DNA from: Spirochaetes bacterium ADurb.Bin218
Lineage (GTDB): Bacteria > Spirochaetota > UBA4802 > UBA5550
DNA length: 59,909 bases
Direction: 5' to 3'
Assembly: GCA_002069965.1 (NCBI GenBank)
Contig: MWCI01000013.1
Span: 1 to 59,909 of the forward strand
Shown here piece after piece: positions 20,958-47,849 of the stretch. Position 1 is the first letter of the stretch; the number at the start of each line of letters is the position of its first letter. Below the pieces are notes generated by a model that had not been told where the DNA came from, searched no databases, and saw only the letters and a list, made by a program, of their open reading frames with translations. Position numbers and translations under genes: made by a program.

Positions 20958-22349
20958 ATGACCGATACAAATTCACTATTGAGAGAAATCCCACAGATAG
21001 AAAAGCTTCTAAATGAAGACTATATTGCTCCTTATTTATCAATCATAGGGAAAAGCGCCTGCACCGAATGCATAAGAACCTCTGTTGCAAAATATAGGGA
21101 ACATCTAAAAAAAACAGGTAAAGGGGAAATTAATCTTCTTCATAATATCATAAAGCAACAACTGAGTATAAAATCTGCCACAAGACTTCAAAGGGTTATA
21201 AATGGCACAGGTGTAATAATTCATACCAACTTAGGCAGAGCCCCCCTTGGAGAAAAAATTTTTGAAAGTCTCAAAGAAAATCTTTCTGGATACTGCAATC
21301 TGGAATTTTACATACCAGAAAAAAAAAGAGGGAAAAGGGGGGGGTTTGCAGAGGAGCTAATATCCTCAATGACAGGGGCTGAAGATGCTTTAATAGTAAA
21401 CAATAATGCTGCAAGCGTTTTCCTCATACTTAACGAATTTGCAAAAGGAGGGGAAACCATTGTATCAAGAGGAGAACTAATTCAAATAGGTGGAGGATTC
21501 CGGATCCCTGATATAATGGCTCAAAGCGGCACAACTCTTGTAGAGGTGGGAACAACCAATATCACCACAGTTGATGATTACAAAAAGGGAATAACAGATA
21601 AAACAAAAATGATCTTTTCTGCCCATAGATCTAACTTTAAACTTGAGGGTTTTACAGAAAACCCATCACTTGTAGAACTCTCAGGATTAAAAAATGAAAA
21701 TATAATATTTGTCAGAGACATGGGCAGTGGCAATCTCGTATATGACTGGATGCAAGGCAGCTTTGAACAGACTGTTTTTAACGAAATATCTCAAGGTGTG
21801 GATATAATCTGTTTTAGCGGAGATAAACTGCTTGGTTCTTGCCAGGCTGGTATAATTACAGGTAAAAAGAATTTAATATCACGACTCAGAAAAAATCCAT
21901 TGATGAGAATGCTTAGAGTGGACAAAATCACATATTACATACTACAGCAAACTCTTATTCATTATGTCAATTCTCAATACAAAAATACCAGATTGTGGGA
22001 TGTTATAACTCAAAGCAAAGAAGCTGTTTCAAAAAAGGCAAGCAGAATAATAAAACTTTGTGGCAAAGAATCTGCAAAGTTCATAAAAAAAATTCCCACA
22101 CAGGCAACTTATGGAGGTGGTTCAATGCCCGGCACATCCATAGAAAGTATTGGAATAAAAATAAATATTCCTGGATATAATCCAGAAGAGTTATACAATT
22201 ACTTTATAAGCTGCACTCCGCCAATTATAGGAACAGTAAGAGAAGATAGCTACATTCTTGATCTTTTTGCAATATTTGATAAAGATATAAAAGATATTGC
22301 AAATTCTATATCCAATCTTCTAAATAACCAAAACACTACAGAAAATTAA
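20958..22349 (+). CDS. selA: L-seryl-tRNA(Sec) selenium transferase
   Basis: The 463-residue PLP enzyme converts seryl-tRNA(Sec) to selenocysteinyl-tRNA(Sec) using selenophosphate. Family hallmarks are the N-terminal LLREIPQIEKLL, NGTGVIIHTNLGRAPLG, GYCNLEF, the NNNAASVFLILN segment and the PLP-lysine motif CFSGDKLLGSCQAGII near residue 295. The C-terminus has GGGSMPGTSIES. It is 14 bases before selB, so the two are co-transcribed. No selC (tRNA-Sec) or selD was found in the window. Confidence 0.97.
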   Translation: MTDTNSLLREIPQIEKLLNEDYIAPYLSIIGKSACTECIRTSVAKYREHLKKTGKGEINLLHNIIKQQLSIKSATRLQRVINGTGVIIHTNLGRAPLGEKIFESLKENLSGYCNLEFYIPEKKRGKRGGFAEELISSMTGAEDALIVNNNAASVFLILNEFAKGGETIVSRGELIQIGGGFRIPDIMAQSGTTLVEVGTTNITTVDDYKKGITDKTKMIFSAHRSNFKLEGFTENPSLVELSGLKNENIIFVRDMGSGNLVYDWMQGSFEQTVFNEISQGVDIICFSGDKLLGSCQAGIITGKKNLISRLRKNPLMRMLRVDKITYYILQQTLIHYVNSQYKNTRLWDVITQSKEAVSKKASRIIKLCGKESAKFIKKIPTQATYGGGSMPGTSIESIGIKINIPGYNPEELYNYFISCTPPIIGTVREDSYILDLFAIFDKDIKDIANSISNLLNNQNTTEN

Positions 22350-22363
22350 ACAGGATTACCAAA

Positions 22364-24184
22364 ATGTATATAGTAGGGACATCTGGGCATATAGACCATG
22401 GCAAAACATCTCTAATAAGAGCATTAACAGGTATAGATTGCGATAGATTGCCAGAAGAAAAAGAAAGGGAAATGACCATTGATATAGGCTTTGCGAATAT
22501 AGAATATCCCAAATTTGGGACAGTAAGCATTATAGACGTGCCAGGCCACGAGAGATTTATCCGTAATATGGTAGCTGGAGCATGGGGGATTGATATTGCA
22601 CTACTTGTAATTGCACTGGATGATGGGTGGATGCTTCAGACAGAGGATCACTTTCGTGTTCTTCAACTACTTGGAGTTGAAAGAATAATAGTTGTCATAA
22701 ATAAATGCGATCTCGGCGATGACGAGATGATCGAGATTATAAAAGAAGAAGTTAAGGAAAGGCTCTCCAATACAAATTACTCTGACTCTGATATAATTGC
22801 TGTTTCTGCAAAGACAGGATTGGGGATCAAAGAATTAAAGGAACTCATACTTGCAAACCTCCGCAGGCTTTCAAAAACAGTTGATGCAGATAAACCTTAT
22901 CTTTACATAGACAGAGTCTTTTCGCCAAAGGGGGTAGGAACTGTAATTACAGGAACTTTAAAAAATGGTATTTTTAAAGAAAACGATATAGTAACCATTC
23001 TTCCTCTAAGAAGAGAGGTAAAGATAAAAAAAATTGAAAGCCATTACAGAGAATTAACAGAAGGAGTTCCTTCACAGAGAACAGCTCTTAATCTGGCAAA
23101 TGTGAACTCAGATGAACTAAAAAGAGGAGATATTATTTGTAAATACAACTTCTTTACAGAAACTCACGATATAATTGCATGGTTTAAACCTCTTGATAAA
23201 AAGAAAAAAATAAGAAACAACACCTACGTTGAAATTCTCTCAGGAACAAATTCAGCCACAGGGAAAATCATACTGATAGAAGACAGTATCAGCGAGGGAT
23301 ACTCCCCTGTGCGCATTCACTTTGACGAAAAGACCTTTGTTTATCCAGGGCAGCCCTTTGTCCTTACGAATCCTGGAGGATTTCGAATTATAGGCGGAGG
23401 GAAGATCATTCTTCCATTTTATGATCCCTCAAGACATAAGCATAAATTAAAAAGCTATATATCCATAATAAAAGATTTCTCTATTGCAGAATTGATTCTC
23501 TTTGAATTGGCAACCTCAGGCTACAAAAAAAAGGAGGATATCTTTAAATCACTACCAAACAGCAAGAAATTTCTGGAGAAAACAATCTCTGAGAAATCAG
23601 AAACTGGAGATATACTCATAAGAGGAGAATATCTTTTTCACAAAGATTTTTACCAGGAAGCCCTTGAAAAGGTAAACAAAACATTAAAAAGCAAGATAGG
23701 TTCAAACCTCAAGGAGATATCTGATTCAGCAGGTTTATCTCATGAGATTACATCAATAATTATAAGCGATATCTCTGCCAGAGAGGTCATTATTGAAAAA
23801 GATGGCAGATTATTTGCAGGTGGATTTGTAACAGAAGAATCTCTTCCAGATTCAAAAAAGAAAATTTTGCAAGAGGCTTTCAAATCCGCAGGAGATGGCC
23901 TTGAATTAGACAAAATTAAAGATGACTTTCTTAAAAAGGATATAAAGGATCTAATCAAGCTTGGCTTTTTAATAAGCCTTGACGGCAATATCATATACCA
24001 TAAAGATATCTACAACTCCATGAGGGATAAGATCATAGCTTTATTTGACGCAAAGGATAAAATAACAGTGCCTGAGGCAAAGGATGCGGTAGGGCTTTCA
24101 AGAAAATACATACTGCCTCTTTTAAATAGAATTGAAAGCGATGGTCTCATAAAACGACTTGGAGATTTCAGAATAAAGGTATAA
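22364..24184 (+). CDS. selB: Selenocysteine-specific elongation factor SelB
   Basis: The 606-residue protein is the EF-Tu-like GTPase that brings Sec-tRNA to UGA codons marked by a SECIS element. G motifs are GTSGHIDHGKTSLIRALTG (G1), the REMTIDIGF effector loop, DVPGHERFIRNM (G3) and NKCD (G4). Domains II and III follow, and the C-terminal winged helices (about 370-606, ending LNRIESDGLIKRLGDFRIKV) bind the SECIS hairpin. Length is normal for the bacterial factor. Coupled to selA and followed five bases later by coaX. Confidence 0.97.
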   Translation: MYIVGTSGHIDHGKTSLIRALTGIDCDRLPEEKEREMTIDIGFANIEYPKFGTVSIIDVPGHERFIRNMVAGAWGIDIALLVIALDDGWMLQTEDHFRVLQLLGVERIIVVINKCDLGDDEMIEIIKEEVKERLSNTNYSDSDIIAVSAKTGLGIKELKELILANLRRLSKTVDADKPYLYIDRVFSPKGVGTVITGTLKNGIFKENDIVTILPLRREVKIKKIESHYRELTEGVPSQRTALNLANVNSDELKRGDIICKYNFFTETHDIIAWFKPLDKKKKIRNNTYVEILSGTNSATGKIILIEDSISEGYSPVRIHFDEKTFVYPGQPFVLTNPGGFRIIGGGKIILPFYDPSRHKHKLKSYISIIKDFSIAELILFELATSGYKKKEDIFKSLPNSKKFLEKTISEKSETGDILIRGEYLFHKDFYQEALEKVNKTLKSKIGSNLKEISDSAGLSHEITSIIISDISAREVIIEKDGRLFAGGFVTEESLPDSKKKILQEAFKSAGDGLELDKIKDDFLKKDIKDLIKLGFLISLDGNIIYHKDIYNSMRDKIIALFDAKDKITVPEAKDAVGLSRKYILPLLNRIESDGLIKRLGDFRIKV

Positions 24185-28727: not shown

Positions 28728-30356
28728 TTAATCATCTTTTTTTCTTTTATAGAAATAAACCTTCATTCCTCCTTGCAAATCATTAATTGAGCCATGTATA
28801 ACCTTACATTTTGCAATTGTCATCATTGGAAAGTGTGCCTGCAAAATAACAATCTTTTCACCATTGAAAGCGCATAACTTATCAAATATTTTGACCTTAT
28901 CTGCAATTTTTCCAGAAACTATAACCTCATTGCCACCGATAGAGCTTATTGTCCCAACAAAATCCCCTGCCTTTTCATAATTTGTAATCTTATCTGATGC
29001 CTTAAGGGGATTTTTAATGAGACCCCATTTGCCACCATCTACTCCCATTTCTGCCTCTGGAAACCATCGACCTCCTTCATTAACTCTTGCTACTGACGCT
29101 TCAAAAGGCAGGACTCCACTGAAATGAGGTTTAATGACAAATTTTCCCTCTGTATCTATAAAGCCACACTTACCATCTTTTTCAATTGCAGCAAGCCCCT
29201 CGCTAAAATCAGAAACTCTGTTAAATCGAATTTCTATAACTACTTTACCTTCTTTATTTACAAAGCCATATTTGCCATCTTTTTTAACTACAGCCAATCC
29301 CTCAGTGAAATTACTTATATAATCAAATTGAGGTTTAATAACCATTCTACCTTCCCTGTCTATCAAGCCCCAGTTATTTCCTACATTAAATTTAGCAAAA
29401 CCTCCCTCAAAAGCATATACTTCATCAAATTGAGGTTCTATGACTATTTTGCCCTCTTTGTTTATAAAGCCCCATTTGTCATCTTTTTTAACTGCAGCAA
29501 GCCCCTCGCTAAAAGACCATAGATCATCAAATTGTGGTTTGGTTATAAATTTACCCTCTTTATTTATATAACACCACTTGCCCTCTTTCTTAGCCTTAGC
29601 CAGCCCTTCATCAAATCCCCATGCCTCTTCAAATTGAGGTTCTATAACCATTTTCCCCTCTTTGTTTATAAAGCCCCATTTACCATCTTTTTCAACTACA
29701 GCCAGACCTTCACTAAAACCATTTGCATTATTAAATTCTGGCTTTATTACAACTTTGCCCTCTGTATTTATATAACCATATTTATATCCTATCTCAAAAA
29801 CAGCCATACCTTCCTTAAAGTCATCTAAGAAATTGAACTGCGGCTCAATGATAAATTTTCCTTCTTTATTTATAAGTCCTCTCAAGTAGCCCTTCTGGAC
29901 AACTGCTATAGCATTTTCAAAAAAACTCGCATCATCAAACTGAGGCTCTATGACCTGGCCTTCTTTGCTTACAAAACCATATTTCTTGTTTAAGTACACC
30001 TTTGCCATACCATCGCTAAAACCCCATACAAGGTTAAATTGCGGCTTTATTATAAATCTTCCAGTTCTATCTATAAAACCCCACTTGCCATCTTTTTTAA
30101 CTGCAGCAAAACCATCTTTAAAAGCAGTAACTTCATCAAAAACTGGATTAACTACAATTTTACCCTCTGTATTTATGTAGCCCCACTTAGAGCCCTGTTT
30201 GACAGCAGCAAAACCATTGCTAAAATCATCTATATAATCAAATTGTGGTTTAACTAACCATTGAATGCTGCTTTGAGCCTTAACCCCTTGTGAAAAAAGA
30301 ATTGCTATTGCCATGACAATAAAAAGGAAAAGTGATTTAAAAATAGTTTTCCTCAT
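28728..30356 (-). CDS. Secreted WG-repeat (KWG) protein with twelve tandem repeats
   Basis: I choose the ATG at 30356 because AAAGGAGG lies six bases upstream; the frame is open further back but that start overlaps the ribosome site. A signal peptide (SLFLFIVMAIAILFSQGVKA) is followed by about twelve 34-residue WG repeats of the form KPQFD..--F.-GLA.VKKDGKWGFINKEGK. The last is degenerate with an insertion. These form an extended beta structure used for binding. After the repeats, the last 85 residues (from about VGTISSIGGNEVIVSG) look like a small beta-barrel of the kind seen at the C-terminus of some flagellar/envelope proteins such as FlgT; that match is tentative. Ligand unknown; probably periplasmic or surface located. 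Monocistronic. Confidence 0.88.
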   Translation of the reverse strand: MRKTIFKSLFLFIVMAIAILFSQGVKAQSSIQWLVKPQFDYIDDFSNGFAAVKQGSKWGYINTEGKIVVNPVFDEVTAFKDGFAAVKKDGKWGFIDRTGRFIIKPQFNLVWGFSDGMAKVYLNKKYGFVSKEGQVIEPQFDDASFFENAIAVVQKGYLRGLINKEGKFIIEPQFNFLDDFKEGMAVFEIGYKYGYINTEGKVVIKPEFNNANGFSEGLAVVEKDGKWGFINKEGKMVIEPQFEEAWGFDEGLAKAKKEGKWCYINKEGKFITKPQFDDLWSFSEGLAAVKKDDKWGFINKEGKIVIEPQFDEVYAFEGGFAKFNVGNNWGLIDREGRMVIKPQFDYISNFTEGLAVVKKDGKYGFVNKEGKVVIEIRFNRVSDFSEGLAAIEKDGKCGFIDTEGKFVIKPHFSGVLPFEASVARVNEGGRWFPEAEMGVDGGKWGLIKNPLKASDKITNYEKAGDFVGTISSIGGNEVIVSGKIADKVKIFDKLCAFNGEKIVILQAHFPMMTIAKCKVIHGSINDLQGGMKVYFYKRKKDD

Positions 30357-30517
30357 AATTACCTCCTTTGACAATATTATAAAAACAAATTTCTAAAAAT
30401 GTTAATTTCTTTGTTGATTTTTACAGCTTCAATTAATCAGGTATTTCAAGCAAAAGGCAATTTAATTCACTACTTCTGGTCGCTCTTTTCTGTTTGTCCT
30501 GCTCCAGATTTTTCCTC

Positions 30518-43136: not shown

Positions 43137-44486
43137 ATGAAAGTAGTTCTTGTTCATCCACCAATAGAAGATTTCTATATAACAAACATCAGAAGACAGC
43201 CTCTTGGTCTTTTATATATTGCATCTGCCCTTAAAGAGAAAGGTCATGAGGTAATGCTATTAAACTGCCACCTGGCAAAGAAAAAGGAAATGCCTATACC
43301 TGATGAATTTGATTATTTGAAAAAATTCATGTTGCAAAGTGATCCTTATTTAAAATTTCCTTTTAAGTCATACTCTCACTGGGGATTAAGCTGGGAAGAA
43401 ATATCCCTTAGGATAAAAAACATAGAGGCAGATCTATGGTTTATATCCTCTCTCTTTACAACATATTATGAAGAAGTGGACAGAATTATTGAACTAATAA
43501 AAAAGCATCACAAAAATTCAATAATAGCAGTTGGTGGCAATCATGCTACTTTACATGCTCAATATTATCTAAACGCTCAACGTGTTGACTTTATCATCAG
43601 AGGTGAGGGTGAAATATCATCTATTGAGCTTTTAGAAAAAATCCAAAAAGGAGGAACCTTAGATGATATTCCTGGTGTGATATATACAAAGAATCCTCAA
43701 AATATTAACTCTCTGTCGCAAAGTCCTGACATAAATCAAATTGCCTATCCTGCAAGAGAGTTGCTTGCTCCAAGGGATTTTATAGCATATAAGAAAAAAT
43801 TAATCTCTCTGATAACATCCCGTGGGTGTCCTAACAGATGCAACTTCTGCACAGGTAAAATAATCTGGGGAAATAAATATCGAACAACCAATATAGATTA
43901 TGCCATGAAAGAAATAGATCAATGCCTTAAATATTACAAAGCAGATATAATCAATTTTGAAGATGATAATCTCTTTGCAAATCAAGAAAGAGCTAAATCT
44001 CTTTTAAATGAAATTATCAAGCTTAAAAAAACTATTCAAAAAAATTTTGAGCTTACAGCCATGAATGGAATTTCCATTGAAAATATAAATGAAGAGATAT
44101 TACCTCTTATGCAAGAAGCTGGATTTAAGGAATTGAATATATCACTGGTTACAAAATCCAGCTCAATACAATCAGAAAATAACAGACCCTTTGATTCACA
44201 AAAATTCAAAAATATAGCCTCAGCAGCTCAAAATCTTGGTTTTAATGTGAGAGGCTATTTTATAATGGGATTGCCAGAACAAACAAAGGAAGAGATTCGT
44301 GAAACAATTGACTTTTTGAAATCCTTAAAAATTTCTTTTTTCCCATCTGTTTATTATAACGTCTTTTCTCCTGAATCACAATGGAAAGTTCAGAGATCAT
44401 CTGCCTTTTATAATGAGGGGAAAGATTTCACGAGGGAGGATCTCATAAAATTCTTTAATATCTGCTATAAAAATAAAAATGAGTAA
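43137..44486 (+). CDS. B12-binding domain radical SAM protein
   Basis: The 449-residue protein begins with a B12-binding-like domain (KVVLVHPPIEDFYI, then AVGGNHATLHAQ near 125). A radical SAM domain follows with the cluster motif SRGCPNRCNFC (CxxxCxxC) near residue 232. The later INFEDDNLFA and FNVRGYFIMGLPEQTKEEI segments are typical of the BchE/P-methylase group. Such proteins often methylate or rearrange unactivated carbons; substrate unknown. A corrinoid requirement is plausible, since cobO is encoded at 1.7 kb, but many family members have lost B12 binding. Monocistronic, 134 bases before the HAMP operon. Confidence 0.9.
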   Translation: MKVVLVHPPIEDFYITNIRRQPLGLLYIASALKEKGHEVMLLNCHLAKKKEMPIPDEFDYLKKFMLQSDPYLKFPFKSYSHWGLSWEEISLRIKNIEADLWFISSLFTTYYEEVDRIIELIKKHHKNSIIAVGGNHATLHAQYYLNAQRVDFIIRGEGEISSIELLEKIQKGGTLDDIPGVIYTKNPQNINSLSQSPDINQIAYPARELLAPRDFIAYKKKLISLITSRGCPNRCNFCTGKIIWGNKYRTTNIDYAMKEIDQCLKYYKADIINFEDDNLFANQERAKSLLNEIIKLKKTIQKNFELTAMNGISIENINEEILPLMQEAGFKELNISLVTKSSSIQSENNRPFDSQKFKNIASAAQNLGFNVRGYFIMGLPEQTKEEIRETIDFLKSLKISFFPSVYYNVFSPESQWKVQRSSAFYNEGKDFTREDLIKFFNICYKNKNE

Positions 44487-44620: not shown

Positions 44621-45409
44621 ATGAACCATTCTAAAAAAGCAACCTCAAGACTAAAAAGAAAGCTTACCCTATACTTTCTTTTAATCTCAATTGTATCCAT
44701 ATCAGTAAGTGCGGAGATTATATTTGAGTTTAGCTCTGGCAGGCTAAGAGACGAGATTAAAAAGAACTTTATTGCTCATATAGACTCAACTCTTCCCAGA
44801 GATACAAAATCAAGAATCAATGAAAGGGAATTGATAGGCTCAATAGAAAAGCCAATTTATGACTTAAGAAACAGAATGATATTACTACTCCTTGTTGTTT
44901 TTGGAAGCATAATAGGAGCCTTTCTAATGTTTACCAAGGATATAGTTGCTCCTATGGATGGCATTGTGGAAGCGACCAAAAAGATTGCAGATGGCGACCT
45001 CACAGTCACTGTTCCTATAATGACAAATGATGAAATTGGTCAGATTGCAAAACTCATAAACACAATGAATGTAAATCTTCAGGATCTTATTATGCAAATA
45101 AGGCAGGAGATATCTCGGCATAGACATAAAATAGAAGAAGCCTCCCAAAAAATCTCTCTTATAGCAGGAGACAAGGCTGAAGAGGTTCTTGAAACAAAAA
45201 AGATGAGGCTTTCTGATTTTAAAAATATTATCAATCTCTCTGATGATCTTATAAAAGAAATGGACAATATGCTTATGGACCTTTCCGCACTTGAAACCTT
45301 TGTAAGAATGTATAAAACCTATTCAATAAACACCGGTATTGAACAAAAAGAAATTGACGATGCTCTGGAGCAATATCAAGATATAGCTCTATACAAGGAA
45401 GGTGAATAA
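44621..45409 (+). CDS. HAMP-domain membrane protein lacking an output domain
   Basis: The start at 44621 is chosen because TAGGAC precedes the ATG; an earlier TTG at 44543 would add an unlikely 26 residues. The 262-residue protein has a basic N-terminus, membrane helix 1 at about 15-33, a short extracytoplasmic loop of about 50 residues, helix 2 at 86-106, and a HAMP domain at about 106-158 (IVEATKKIADGDLTV, DEIGQIAKLINTM). A helical coiled coil to the C-terminus follows. There is no kinase, cyclase or methyl-accepting signalling domain. TAATG overlap couples it to the transporter. It resembles the sensor half of a chemoreceptor. Confidence 0.85.
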   Translation: MNHSKKATSRLKRKLTLYFLLISIVSISVSAEIIFEFSSGRLRDEIKKNFIAHIDSTLPRDTKSRINERELIGSIEKPIYDLRNRMILLLLVVFGSIIGAFLMFTKDIVAPMDGIVEATKKIADGDLTVTVPIMTNDEIGQIAKLINTMNVNLQDLIMQIRQEISRHRHKIEEASQKISLIAGDKAEEVLETKKMRLSDFKNIINLSDDLIKEMDNMLMDLSALETFVRMYKTYSINTGIEQKEIDDALEQYQDIALYKEGE

Positions 45410-46185
45410 TGACTTTTGAATACTGGTATATGTTTCCTGTTGCTATTGTTGTTGCAATTTTAGCAAATTCATCTGGTTTTTCTGGTGGAGTTTTGTTCCA
45501 ACCAATATACAATCTCTTACTTAATATACCAATCCAAAATGCAGTCGCCACAGGTATAGCAACTGAAACTGTAGGGATGACAAGCGGTGCTTTAAGATAC
45601 ATTTACTATAAAATGGTGGATCTTCCAATAGGTTTCACAATGGTTATGTTAACAATACCAGGTGTTGTTCTCGGCAATCATGCCTTAATTGTAATAAATG
45701 GAGATTTATTAAAACTCATACTGGGCTTTATTATATTATTCGTTGCTACTACTCAATTTATAAATGCTGTGCAAAATACTTTTGGAACAAAAGAAAATAT
45801 ACCAGTTGAAGACATTTATCCCTTTATGTGGATTCCTCCTCTGGGAGGTTTTTTTTCAGCATCAACTGGAACAGGTGTATGTGAACTCTCGCAACCACTT
45901 CTGGAAAAGGGACTTAAGCTAAATACAAGAAGAGCCAATGCTACAGCAATATTAATTGAGGCAACTGCAGATTGGATTATCACAATACTCAATCTACAAG
46001 CAGGCCTTATACTATGGCAATTATGGATTTTTACAGGCTCGGGAGTTATAATAGGTGGTCAGATTGGCCCTTATATTTCCAAATATCTTCCTGTAAGAAT
46101 TCTAAAAATTGTATTTTCAATAGCTGTCATAATTATAGGAATTTTTTATATTTATAAAGGATACATGTGGATAAAGAGTTTATAG
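45409..46185 (+). CDS. TSUP family (TauE/SafE) membrane transporter
   Basis: The 258-residue protein has about eight membrane helices and the two-repeat TSUP layout: an N-terminal [15 protein letters not shown] motif and the matching [18 protein letters not shown] in the second half. The family moves sulfite, sulfoacetate, taurine-derived or other small anions. Its start overlaps the HAMP gene stop by one base, and its 3' end overlaps the chemoreceptor-like gene by 19 bases. It is therefore bracketed by two signalling proteins, suggesting that transport and sensing are linked. Confidence 0.9.
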
Positions 46186-47849
46186 GAAATCCTGCATCTC
46201 TTATTTATTTTCTGGAAAGCAACGGCGGACTTGCTGTTCTTTATACAATTCAAAGCTTTATGTTTTTTATGATGCTTTACATTCTGGCTGCAGAATTCTG
46301 GAGGACAAAGGACAGAGGCCTTTTGTATAAGCTCTTTGCAGCCTCAGCGATCACTGCCATAAGCATTGGAACAGCTGCCATCTATATACTCAAATCAATT
46401 TACAACATCGATGTAGGGGAAAAATTCTTCCCGCTGATTTTTAATCTTCTATTTTCTCTAAATGTTTTATCTCTTGCAAGGGCCTTTACATACGACTATG
46501 TTGCTGACAAGCAAGCCTTTGATAGACTTATAAATTATACTATGGCAGTAACAGTAGCTATATACTTTGGAGTTCAACTATGGTGGCTAAATATTTATGA
46601 TAGCTCAAAAACATTCAGCAACTCATACCCTCAGGGATTATTTTCTATATTCTTTATAATTGTTCTTTCTTTTTCAATTTACATGCTTACAAAATTCAGA
46701 CAAAGTTACAAGGCAAGACTTGTCACTGCCTTTGCCTCAATACTTATAATTCAGATCATAACATTGTGGGGGGTCTTTATAAATTATACGCCCTCTGCCT
46801 TTAAAATAATAAAAGGAGCTCTTCCTATAGTTGTGCCTGTAATGTTTACAAGCGTTGTATTCAAAGAGCTCATAGGTAGAGTGGTACTCATGGTTGAGCA
46901 TATAAGGCTAACCTTTGAAACACAAAAGGAGTTAATCTTTGAGCTCATCAATATTGGCAGCGAGCTCTCAGATATCTCTGACTCCCTGGTAAAAACAGCT
47001 ATTGAAGGATGGGGAAAACTCTCCTCTGTAGTTGAGGCAATACAAAGTCAAATCAATGAAGGAGTTCAAATCACACAAAAAATAAGTGAAAACTTTGAGC
47101 AATATCAAAACCTTAAGAACTATAAAATTATACCTGAAATAGAAAATTTAAATAACAATCACAGCAATACAGATGAAGAGGAATTAACAGCAATCTGGGA
47201 AACAATTGATCAAACCATAGGCCACCTTGACCATGCTATAAATGTTATTCAAAATATTAAAGATAAAATTCCCTTGCTTCACTCAACAGTGGATCTCATT
47301 GACGATATTTCTGACAAAACCAACATACTTTCACTTAACGCCTCAATTGAGGCTGCACGGGCAGGAATCTATGGCAGAGGCTTTGCTGTGGTTGCAGAAG
47401 AAGTTGGAAATCTGGCAGAAAATTCACTTTCAAGCTCAAGGGAGCTAAAAAAAAGATTTACAGAAATTACAGAAATTCTCAAAAAATATGAAGATGAGGT
47501 TTTCTCTGCGAAAAAAATATTGCAGAATATTCCACGGGAAATAAATTCAAAATCCGAGGTCAAAGAGTATCAATCATTTTTTGAGTTCACAGATCAGGTC
47601 AAGGTTAACGTTGAAAAATATATGGCAGACACTGAAGAGATTATAGAAAACTTTAGCAGATCAGGTGAATTTGCAAAAACCATAGAATCACGTTCATTAT
47701 ATATGAAAGATAAAATTGCAGAGCATGTCCGCGAAATTGAAACAATCGCAGGCATGGGTGATTTGTTAAACAGTCTAATTCAGAAACTTAATACAAAGAT
47801 AAATATCCTCATAAAGAATTCAGGTGAGCTGGAAAAATTGATGAGGTAA
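46167..47849 (+). CDS. Seven-helix membrane protein with a methyl-accepting chemotaxis signalling domain
   Basis: The start is a GTG at 46167 with AAAGG six bases upstream, inside the end of the transporter gene. Residues 20-240 form about seven membrane helices with no recognisable ligand-binding domain and no HAMP. The cytoplasmic part ends in a methyl-accepting-like coiled coil with the conserved hairpin tip [15 protein letters not shown] and [18 protein letters not shown] near 380-415. That tip contacts CheA/CheW in classical receptors. The HAMP protein two genes upstream has what this one lacks. CheA/CheW partners are not in the window. Confidence 0.88.

Follow-up and report, generated by a model that had tools for sequence, protein, structure and literature searches.

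A spirochaete gene trio of HAMP protein, TSUP transporter and seven-helix chemoreceptor as a possible multi-subunit sensory unit

HAMP domains usually relay signals between the domains of a single chain. Among the systems closest to the locus considered here, sensory rhodopsin II and HtrII combine a seven-helix protein and a two-helix HAMP protein that act on a chemoreceptor hairpin and CheA (PMC5292967, PMC3274258). Transporters acting as co-sensors are also established, namely DctA with DcuS and BceAB with BceS, and the transporter is thought to report its loading or the flux through it (PMC6978683). Transporters of the TSUP family are poorly characterised and mostly tied to sulfur compounds (PMC5840216). 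Searches of the open-access literature yielded nothing relevant for TSUP or TauE proteins in connection with HAMP domains or chemotaxis, and no description of a module such as the one below was found in the part of the literature covered.

The window, that is, the whole stretch of 59,909 nucleotides analysed here, comes from a draft spirochaete genome of 3.03 Mb in 160 contigs (G000), whose closest named relatives are all Spirochaetes assemblies. Its plus strand carries three overlapping genes in the order H, T, M (Table 1), encoding a HAMP protein, a TSUP transporter and a seven-helix (7TM) protein with a chemoreceptor hairpin. A check of open reading frames and domains placed all three where the first-pass annotation had put them; the overlaps are 1 base between H and T and 19 bases between T and M. 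The trio is preceded by a gene for a B12-binding radical SAM protein (43137-44486) and followed by an aspartate/ornithine carbamoyltransferase gene. The radical SAM gene is also upstream of the trio in G001, G002, G007 and G011 and may be part of its neighbourhood. Candidate promoters in the trio region are at the chance level (18 found, 14.2 expected), and the terminator-like sites (6 versus 2.2 in shuffled sequences) all lie within genes. Elsewhere in the window, selA and selB are adjacent (20958-24184), no tRNA, including tRNA-Sec, was detected, and positions 28728-30374 encode a protein that consists of twelve WG repeats and probably carries a signal peptide.

Table 1. Features of the trio (window positions) and of related clusters (position within the named locus)
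Feature	Position	Strand	Details and basis
H, two-helix membrane protein with HAMP and short cytoplasmic hairpin, without output domain	44621..45409	+	262 aa; AlphaFold2 model; Pfam
HAMP domain of H	44933..45067	+	residues 105-149; Pfam HAMP E 2.1e-11
Post-HAMP helical hairpin of H	45089..45328	+	about residues 157-236; conserved C-terminal F..MYKTY; AlphaFold2 model, alignments
T, TSUP (TauE/SafE) family transporter	45409..46185	+	258 aa; Pfam TauE E 4.1e-31
M, 7TM protein with chemoreceptor hairpin	46167..47849	+	560 aa; GTG start; Pfam, protein search, AlphaFold2 model
Seven-helix membrane domain of M	46221..46877	+	residues 19-237; no Pfam family matches
Membrane-proximal arm of M, N side	46914..47051	+	residues 250-295; GW.KLS.VV; alignment; kept in tip-less homologues
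Chemoreceptor hairpin tip of M	47304..47426	+	residues 380-420 (31 protein letters not shown); Pfam, Tsr alignment
Membrane-proximal arm of M, C side	47703..47804	+	residues 513-546 (10 protein letters not shown); alignment; kept in tip-less homologues
Divergent tip-less trio clusters	L184:257-7887; L185:6716-14311; L186:2376-5825
S in a cheW-cheY-STAS-cheA-cheB cluster	L199:2-7750		degenerate double-MCP protein

Hydropathy places the membrane helices of H near residues 17-35 and 86-104, with an outer loop of about 50 residues between them, and the HAMP domain follows the second helix, as in HAMP receptors. In the AlphaFold2 model, built with 23 orthologues, the first membrane helix (10-37) is followed by a short helical outer loop, the second runs into HAMP (68-123), and HAMP helix 2 extends into an antiparallel hairpin (138-192 and 197-236). 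The chain stops 113 residues past HAMP, with no Pfam match to an output domain and no match to a kinase domain. Thus most of the earlier description of H (two helices, short outer loop, HAMP, no output) holds by Pfam and hydropathy, but there is more than the proposed coiled coil, as the C-terminal part folds back as a hairpin in the model. Foldseek searches with this model retrieved HAMP fragments, and those with the model of M retrieved chemoreceptor tails. Both models have low pTM (0.50 for H at mean pLDDT 78, 0.43 for M at mean pLDDT 74.5), and thus only helices and local folds can be trusted, not the overall shape.

M is modelled as seven helices followed by a long cytoplasmic hairpin, with the seventh membrane helix and the first arm forming one helix (210-317) and further segments at 337-398, 400-461 and 466-559. 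The signalling domain MCPsignal (PF00015) matches residues 354-461 with E 1.4e-24. Together with the model this bears out the earlier claim of about seven helices and a signalling tip without HAMP: no Pfam match to HAMP was found in M, although a HAMP domain in the same chain is usual, if not universal, in methyl-accepting chemotaxis proteins (MCPs). The tip can be aligned to E. coli Tsr (1qu7) and is recognisable as being of the kind that contacts CheA and CheW. However, some of its residues differ from Tsr, among them D383 in place of a trimer-contact Phe. The E. coli-type methylation consensus is absent from M, but also from five of six other MCPs of these genomes, and is therefore uninformative. 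No Pfam family matches the N-terminal 264 residues above the cut-off. Thus the view that M has no sensor domain is correct for known domains, but the 7TM region may be the sensor itself. The GPCR-shaped Foldseek matches of this region (E of about 0.01-0.1) show a loose likeness of topology and do not speak for kinship. A microbial rhodopsin was considered and rejected: there is no rhodopsin Pfam match and no invariant retinal lysine in the seventh helix, where the one lysine away from the cytoplasmic end varies between K and R in the orthologues.

T matches the TauE family (PF01925) with residues 9-246 against profile positions 2-236 of 237, so that its earlier assignment to this family extends over the whole chain. 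It is the most conserved of the three proteins, with 59-83% identity among spirochaete orthologues. In two loci (G158 and G112) a gene for an ArsR-type regulator is situated some 60-100 bases behind T. The nearest solved relatives of these regulators include YgaV, SqrR and BigR, which sense sulfide or persulfide, and two cysteine positions are kept in both regulators. Since the regulators resemble these sensors, the predicted substrate of T is likely to be a sulfur anion. The T-like matches outside spirochaetes (L045-L050) have 27-51% identity, their neighbours encode a TonB receptor, hydrolases and transaldolase, and neither H nor M was found beside them. A possible TSUP fusion in L047 proved to be an open frame called too long, and no second domain is present in it.

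The gene order was studied in depth in Spirochaetota, and other phyla were covered by one pattern-based scan with T; the organisms covered are represented by draft metagenome assemblies. A pattern scan of contigs that used only the M sequence detected no relatives, the peptide patterns being too specific. In a protein search of 59 related genomes, full-length relatives of M (40-53% identity) turned up in eight genomes other than its own, and one further genome had two fragments at contig ends. In all genomes with relatives of M the order is H-T-M, the flanking genes vary, and the spacing between complete T and M genes, with loci found later included, is from -19 to +37 bases. Altogether, full-length orthologues retain this order in about a dozen genomes with differing flanks, and thus the order is not due to chance. 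The trio might have been peculiar to one genome, a possibility that the first-pass annotation had counted against its proposal; in the Spirochaetota sample the order is conserved.

T orthologues at the above identities have H directly upstream in 22 named spirochaete assemblies. Among 393 Spirochaetota genomes, H orthologues (threshold E <= 1e-57) were found in 25, and T is the next gene in all 24 readable loci, mostly overlapping or at a distance of at most 20 bases; the remaining locus ends at a contig end. A profile search detected the 7TM domain in 14 of the 393 genomes, each time directly behind H-T (14/14) and never away from this pair. A fifteenth candidate, a weak match in G034 (E 4e-4) with four stops, was rejected. 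On the other hand, H-T is without M in 12 of the 24 loci. The core is the H-T pair: M depends on H-T, and H-T does not depend on M.

One possibility is that M is an independent 7TM chemoreceptor with its own ligand, and that the three genes share a transcript because all of them serve one nutrient, with no contact between the products. The 7TM domain is well conserved (mean column identity 66%) and could bind a ligand, and transporters and receptors that handle one compound are often co-transcribed. However, such a domain would be expected to occur alone or elsewhere at times, contrary to what is seen in the 393 genomes, and H would be left without an evident role. We regard this explanation as quite improbable.

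A second, diverged pair, H'-T', is present in seven genomes, in two of which (G008 and G013) it is directly behind H-T. H' is a HAMP protein of 211-321 amino acids, and T' is a TSUP protein about 25% identical to T. No 7TM protein follows H'-T' in any of the seven genomes, and in three of ten loci H' has no adjoining TSUP gene. Some H' proteins have a C-terminal extension of about 60 residues. A diverged PNP/UDP-phosphorylase-like protein of about 200 residues is encoded behind H'-T' (L115, L118, L122) or behind H' alone (L116), and in two genomes the gene behind the transporter-less H' encodes a CIA30-like protein that probably has a signal peptide (L119:5993-6556, L123:4501-5064).

Separate trees of H and T, obtained by a quick search with SH-aLRT support only and having many open forks, agree on three groups, namely a main group, a prime group and the pair from genomes G185 and G203. 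Thus H and T appear to have diversified together. The pairwise identities of H and of T correlate (r = 0.84), and the presence of M switches at least six times on either tree. This pattern agrees with H and T having descended together while M was repeatedly lost or replaced.

Another possibility is that H-T is the actual machine: H would be a HAMP subunit dedicated to the TSUP transporter, either gating it or sensing the envelope on its behalf, and M an optional rider by which a chemosensory signal is added or received in some species. The loci without M, the duplication of the pair with no 7TM protein behind it and the high conservation of T all agree with this. However, the 7TM protein never occurs without H-T, an MCP-like protein can still follow H-T in genomes without M, and a divergent H-T-7TM trio is situated in a CheA cluster. 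On balance, this explanation is unlikely.

The divergent trio was found in G185 and G203 with the order unchanged and the outer loop of H enlarged. T of G203 is detected by the T profile with E 4e-7, and Pfam recognises TauE in the two T proteins with 6e-22 and 1e-19. The 7TM proteins have 340-343 amino acids: in the alignment the distal hairpin is gone and the two membrane-proximal segments are retained, forming a hairpin with arms of about 50 residues each. The cluster order is CheA - receiver - CheX-like - receiver - H - T - 7TM, with CheA of 994 and 1003 amino acids and receiver proteins in both genomes. The CheX-like protein is a weak Pfam match in G185, and G203 has a protein of similar size and place. 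The G203 cluster also encodes CheW, a globin and an MCP, the globin gene lying between the other two. As for the window genome, it contains 11 loci with CheW domains, CheA-sized frames among them.

Behind T, the genomes G006 and G030 have in M's position S, a soluble degenerate MCP-like protein with no membrane helices (625 and 560 amino acids, 42% identical, with degenerate MCP repeats). Relatives of S follow M in G009, G020 and G026, so that five genomes have S after T or M, and others are encoded elsewhere in the genome in G010, G013, G024 and G033. In G028, which has no H-T, S is located behind genes for CheW, CheY, a STAS protein, CheA and CheB. A STAS protein is also encoded behind S in G009. 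A 393-residue protein without a Pfam match adjoins S in the G028 cluster. No S was found in the window genome at E <= 1e-8. There are three separate links to the CheA pathway: the tip of M, the che cluster at the divergent trio, and S. Within the module it is the tip that is exchangeable.

The same complex might work in the reverse direction, with a chemosensory array opening or closing T through M and H. An output-less HAMP protein with a constant transporter partner would suit an effector subunit, and the receivers encoded beside CheA could control the tip-less 7TM proteins. However, signals normally pass from chemoreceptor tips to CheA and not the other way, and we know of no precedent in which a CheA array gates a secondary carrier through direct contact. 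Hence we consider reversed signalling very improbable.

The explanation that we favour, and rate about as likely as not, is that the trio is a multi-subunit membrane sensory unit in which H and M sense the transporter, or its substrate, and report to CheA and CheW. T, as a carrier of a small, probably sulfur-containing anion, would provide the primary input, in that substrate binding or transport would shift the two membrane helices of H. Through HAMP and the short hairpin, H would transmit the change laterally to M at its membrane-proximal hairpin. M would be anchored by seven helices instead of two, with no HAMP, and its hairpin would carry the change to the tip, which would join CheW/CheA arrays. 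In other species, the tip might be supplied by separate proteins, MCPs or S, replacing M or acting beside it. Since H stops after its hairpin, its HAMP domain must have a partner in another protein. The obvious candidate is the membrane-proximal hairpin kept in the tip-less 7TM proteins, because it would have a comparable reach from the membrane, as roughly estimated from the H model and the 7TM alignment.

One point against the sensory unit is the occurrence of H-T without M, which means that H-T needs some use without the output of M, or that another MCP serves it. The H' genes lacking T', the substitution D383 in the tip and the scant knowledge of TSUP substrates also count against it. The idea that the three proteins form a unit had been proposed in the first-pass annotation and is supported in part: it gains from the conserved association and from two additional connections with the CheA pathway in the genomes. 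However, M is optional, H-T is duplicated as a pair, and the tip is absent in two lineages. It is conceivable, though somewhat doubtful, that the trio represents a new class of chemoreceptors made of separate subunits: a transporter as the sensor, a stand-alone HAMP relay, and a 7TM anchor on which evolution can exchange the chemoreceptor hairpin, drop it or put a soluble protein in its place.

If true, this would mean that HAMP domains can signal between chains and not only along one, which bears on the debated mechanism of HAMP, and that a transporter can report directly into CheA arrays. It would also provide a probable role for a group of transporters from the TSUP family, few members of which have been characterised. 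The natural variants, with the tip fused, lost, carried by a soluble protein or absent, amount to a natural dissection of how the parts communicate.

Several known systems resemble the trio in part. Classical MCPs, such as Tsr and those of Thermotoga maritima, share the hairpin tip with M; however, M contains neither HAMP nor a known ligand domain, and its membrane helices number seven rather than two. An Af1503-type HAMP receptor is the best match of the H model to an isolated HAMP structure (Foldseek probability 1.00, E about 0.1, not significant alone). To our knowledge, Af1503 ends without a known output domain, whereas in H a conserved hairpin follows HAMP, and there is a genetic tie to a transporter. 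As in DctA/DcuS and BceAB/BceS, a transporter is paired with a membrane signalling protein. However, those transporters act on histidine kinases holding their own kinase domain, whereas the trio has a TSUP carrier, an output-less HAMP protein and a 7TM chemoreceptor. Sensory rhodopsin II with HtrII likewise combines a seven-helix protein, a two-helix HAMP protein and a chemoreceptor hairpin. There, HAMP and the hairpin belong to one chain and the seven-helix protein is a retinal protein, whereas M lacks the invariant retinal-type lysine. In the trio the hairpin is on the 7TM protein, HAMP is on a separate chain, and a transporter is added.
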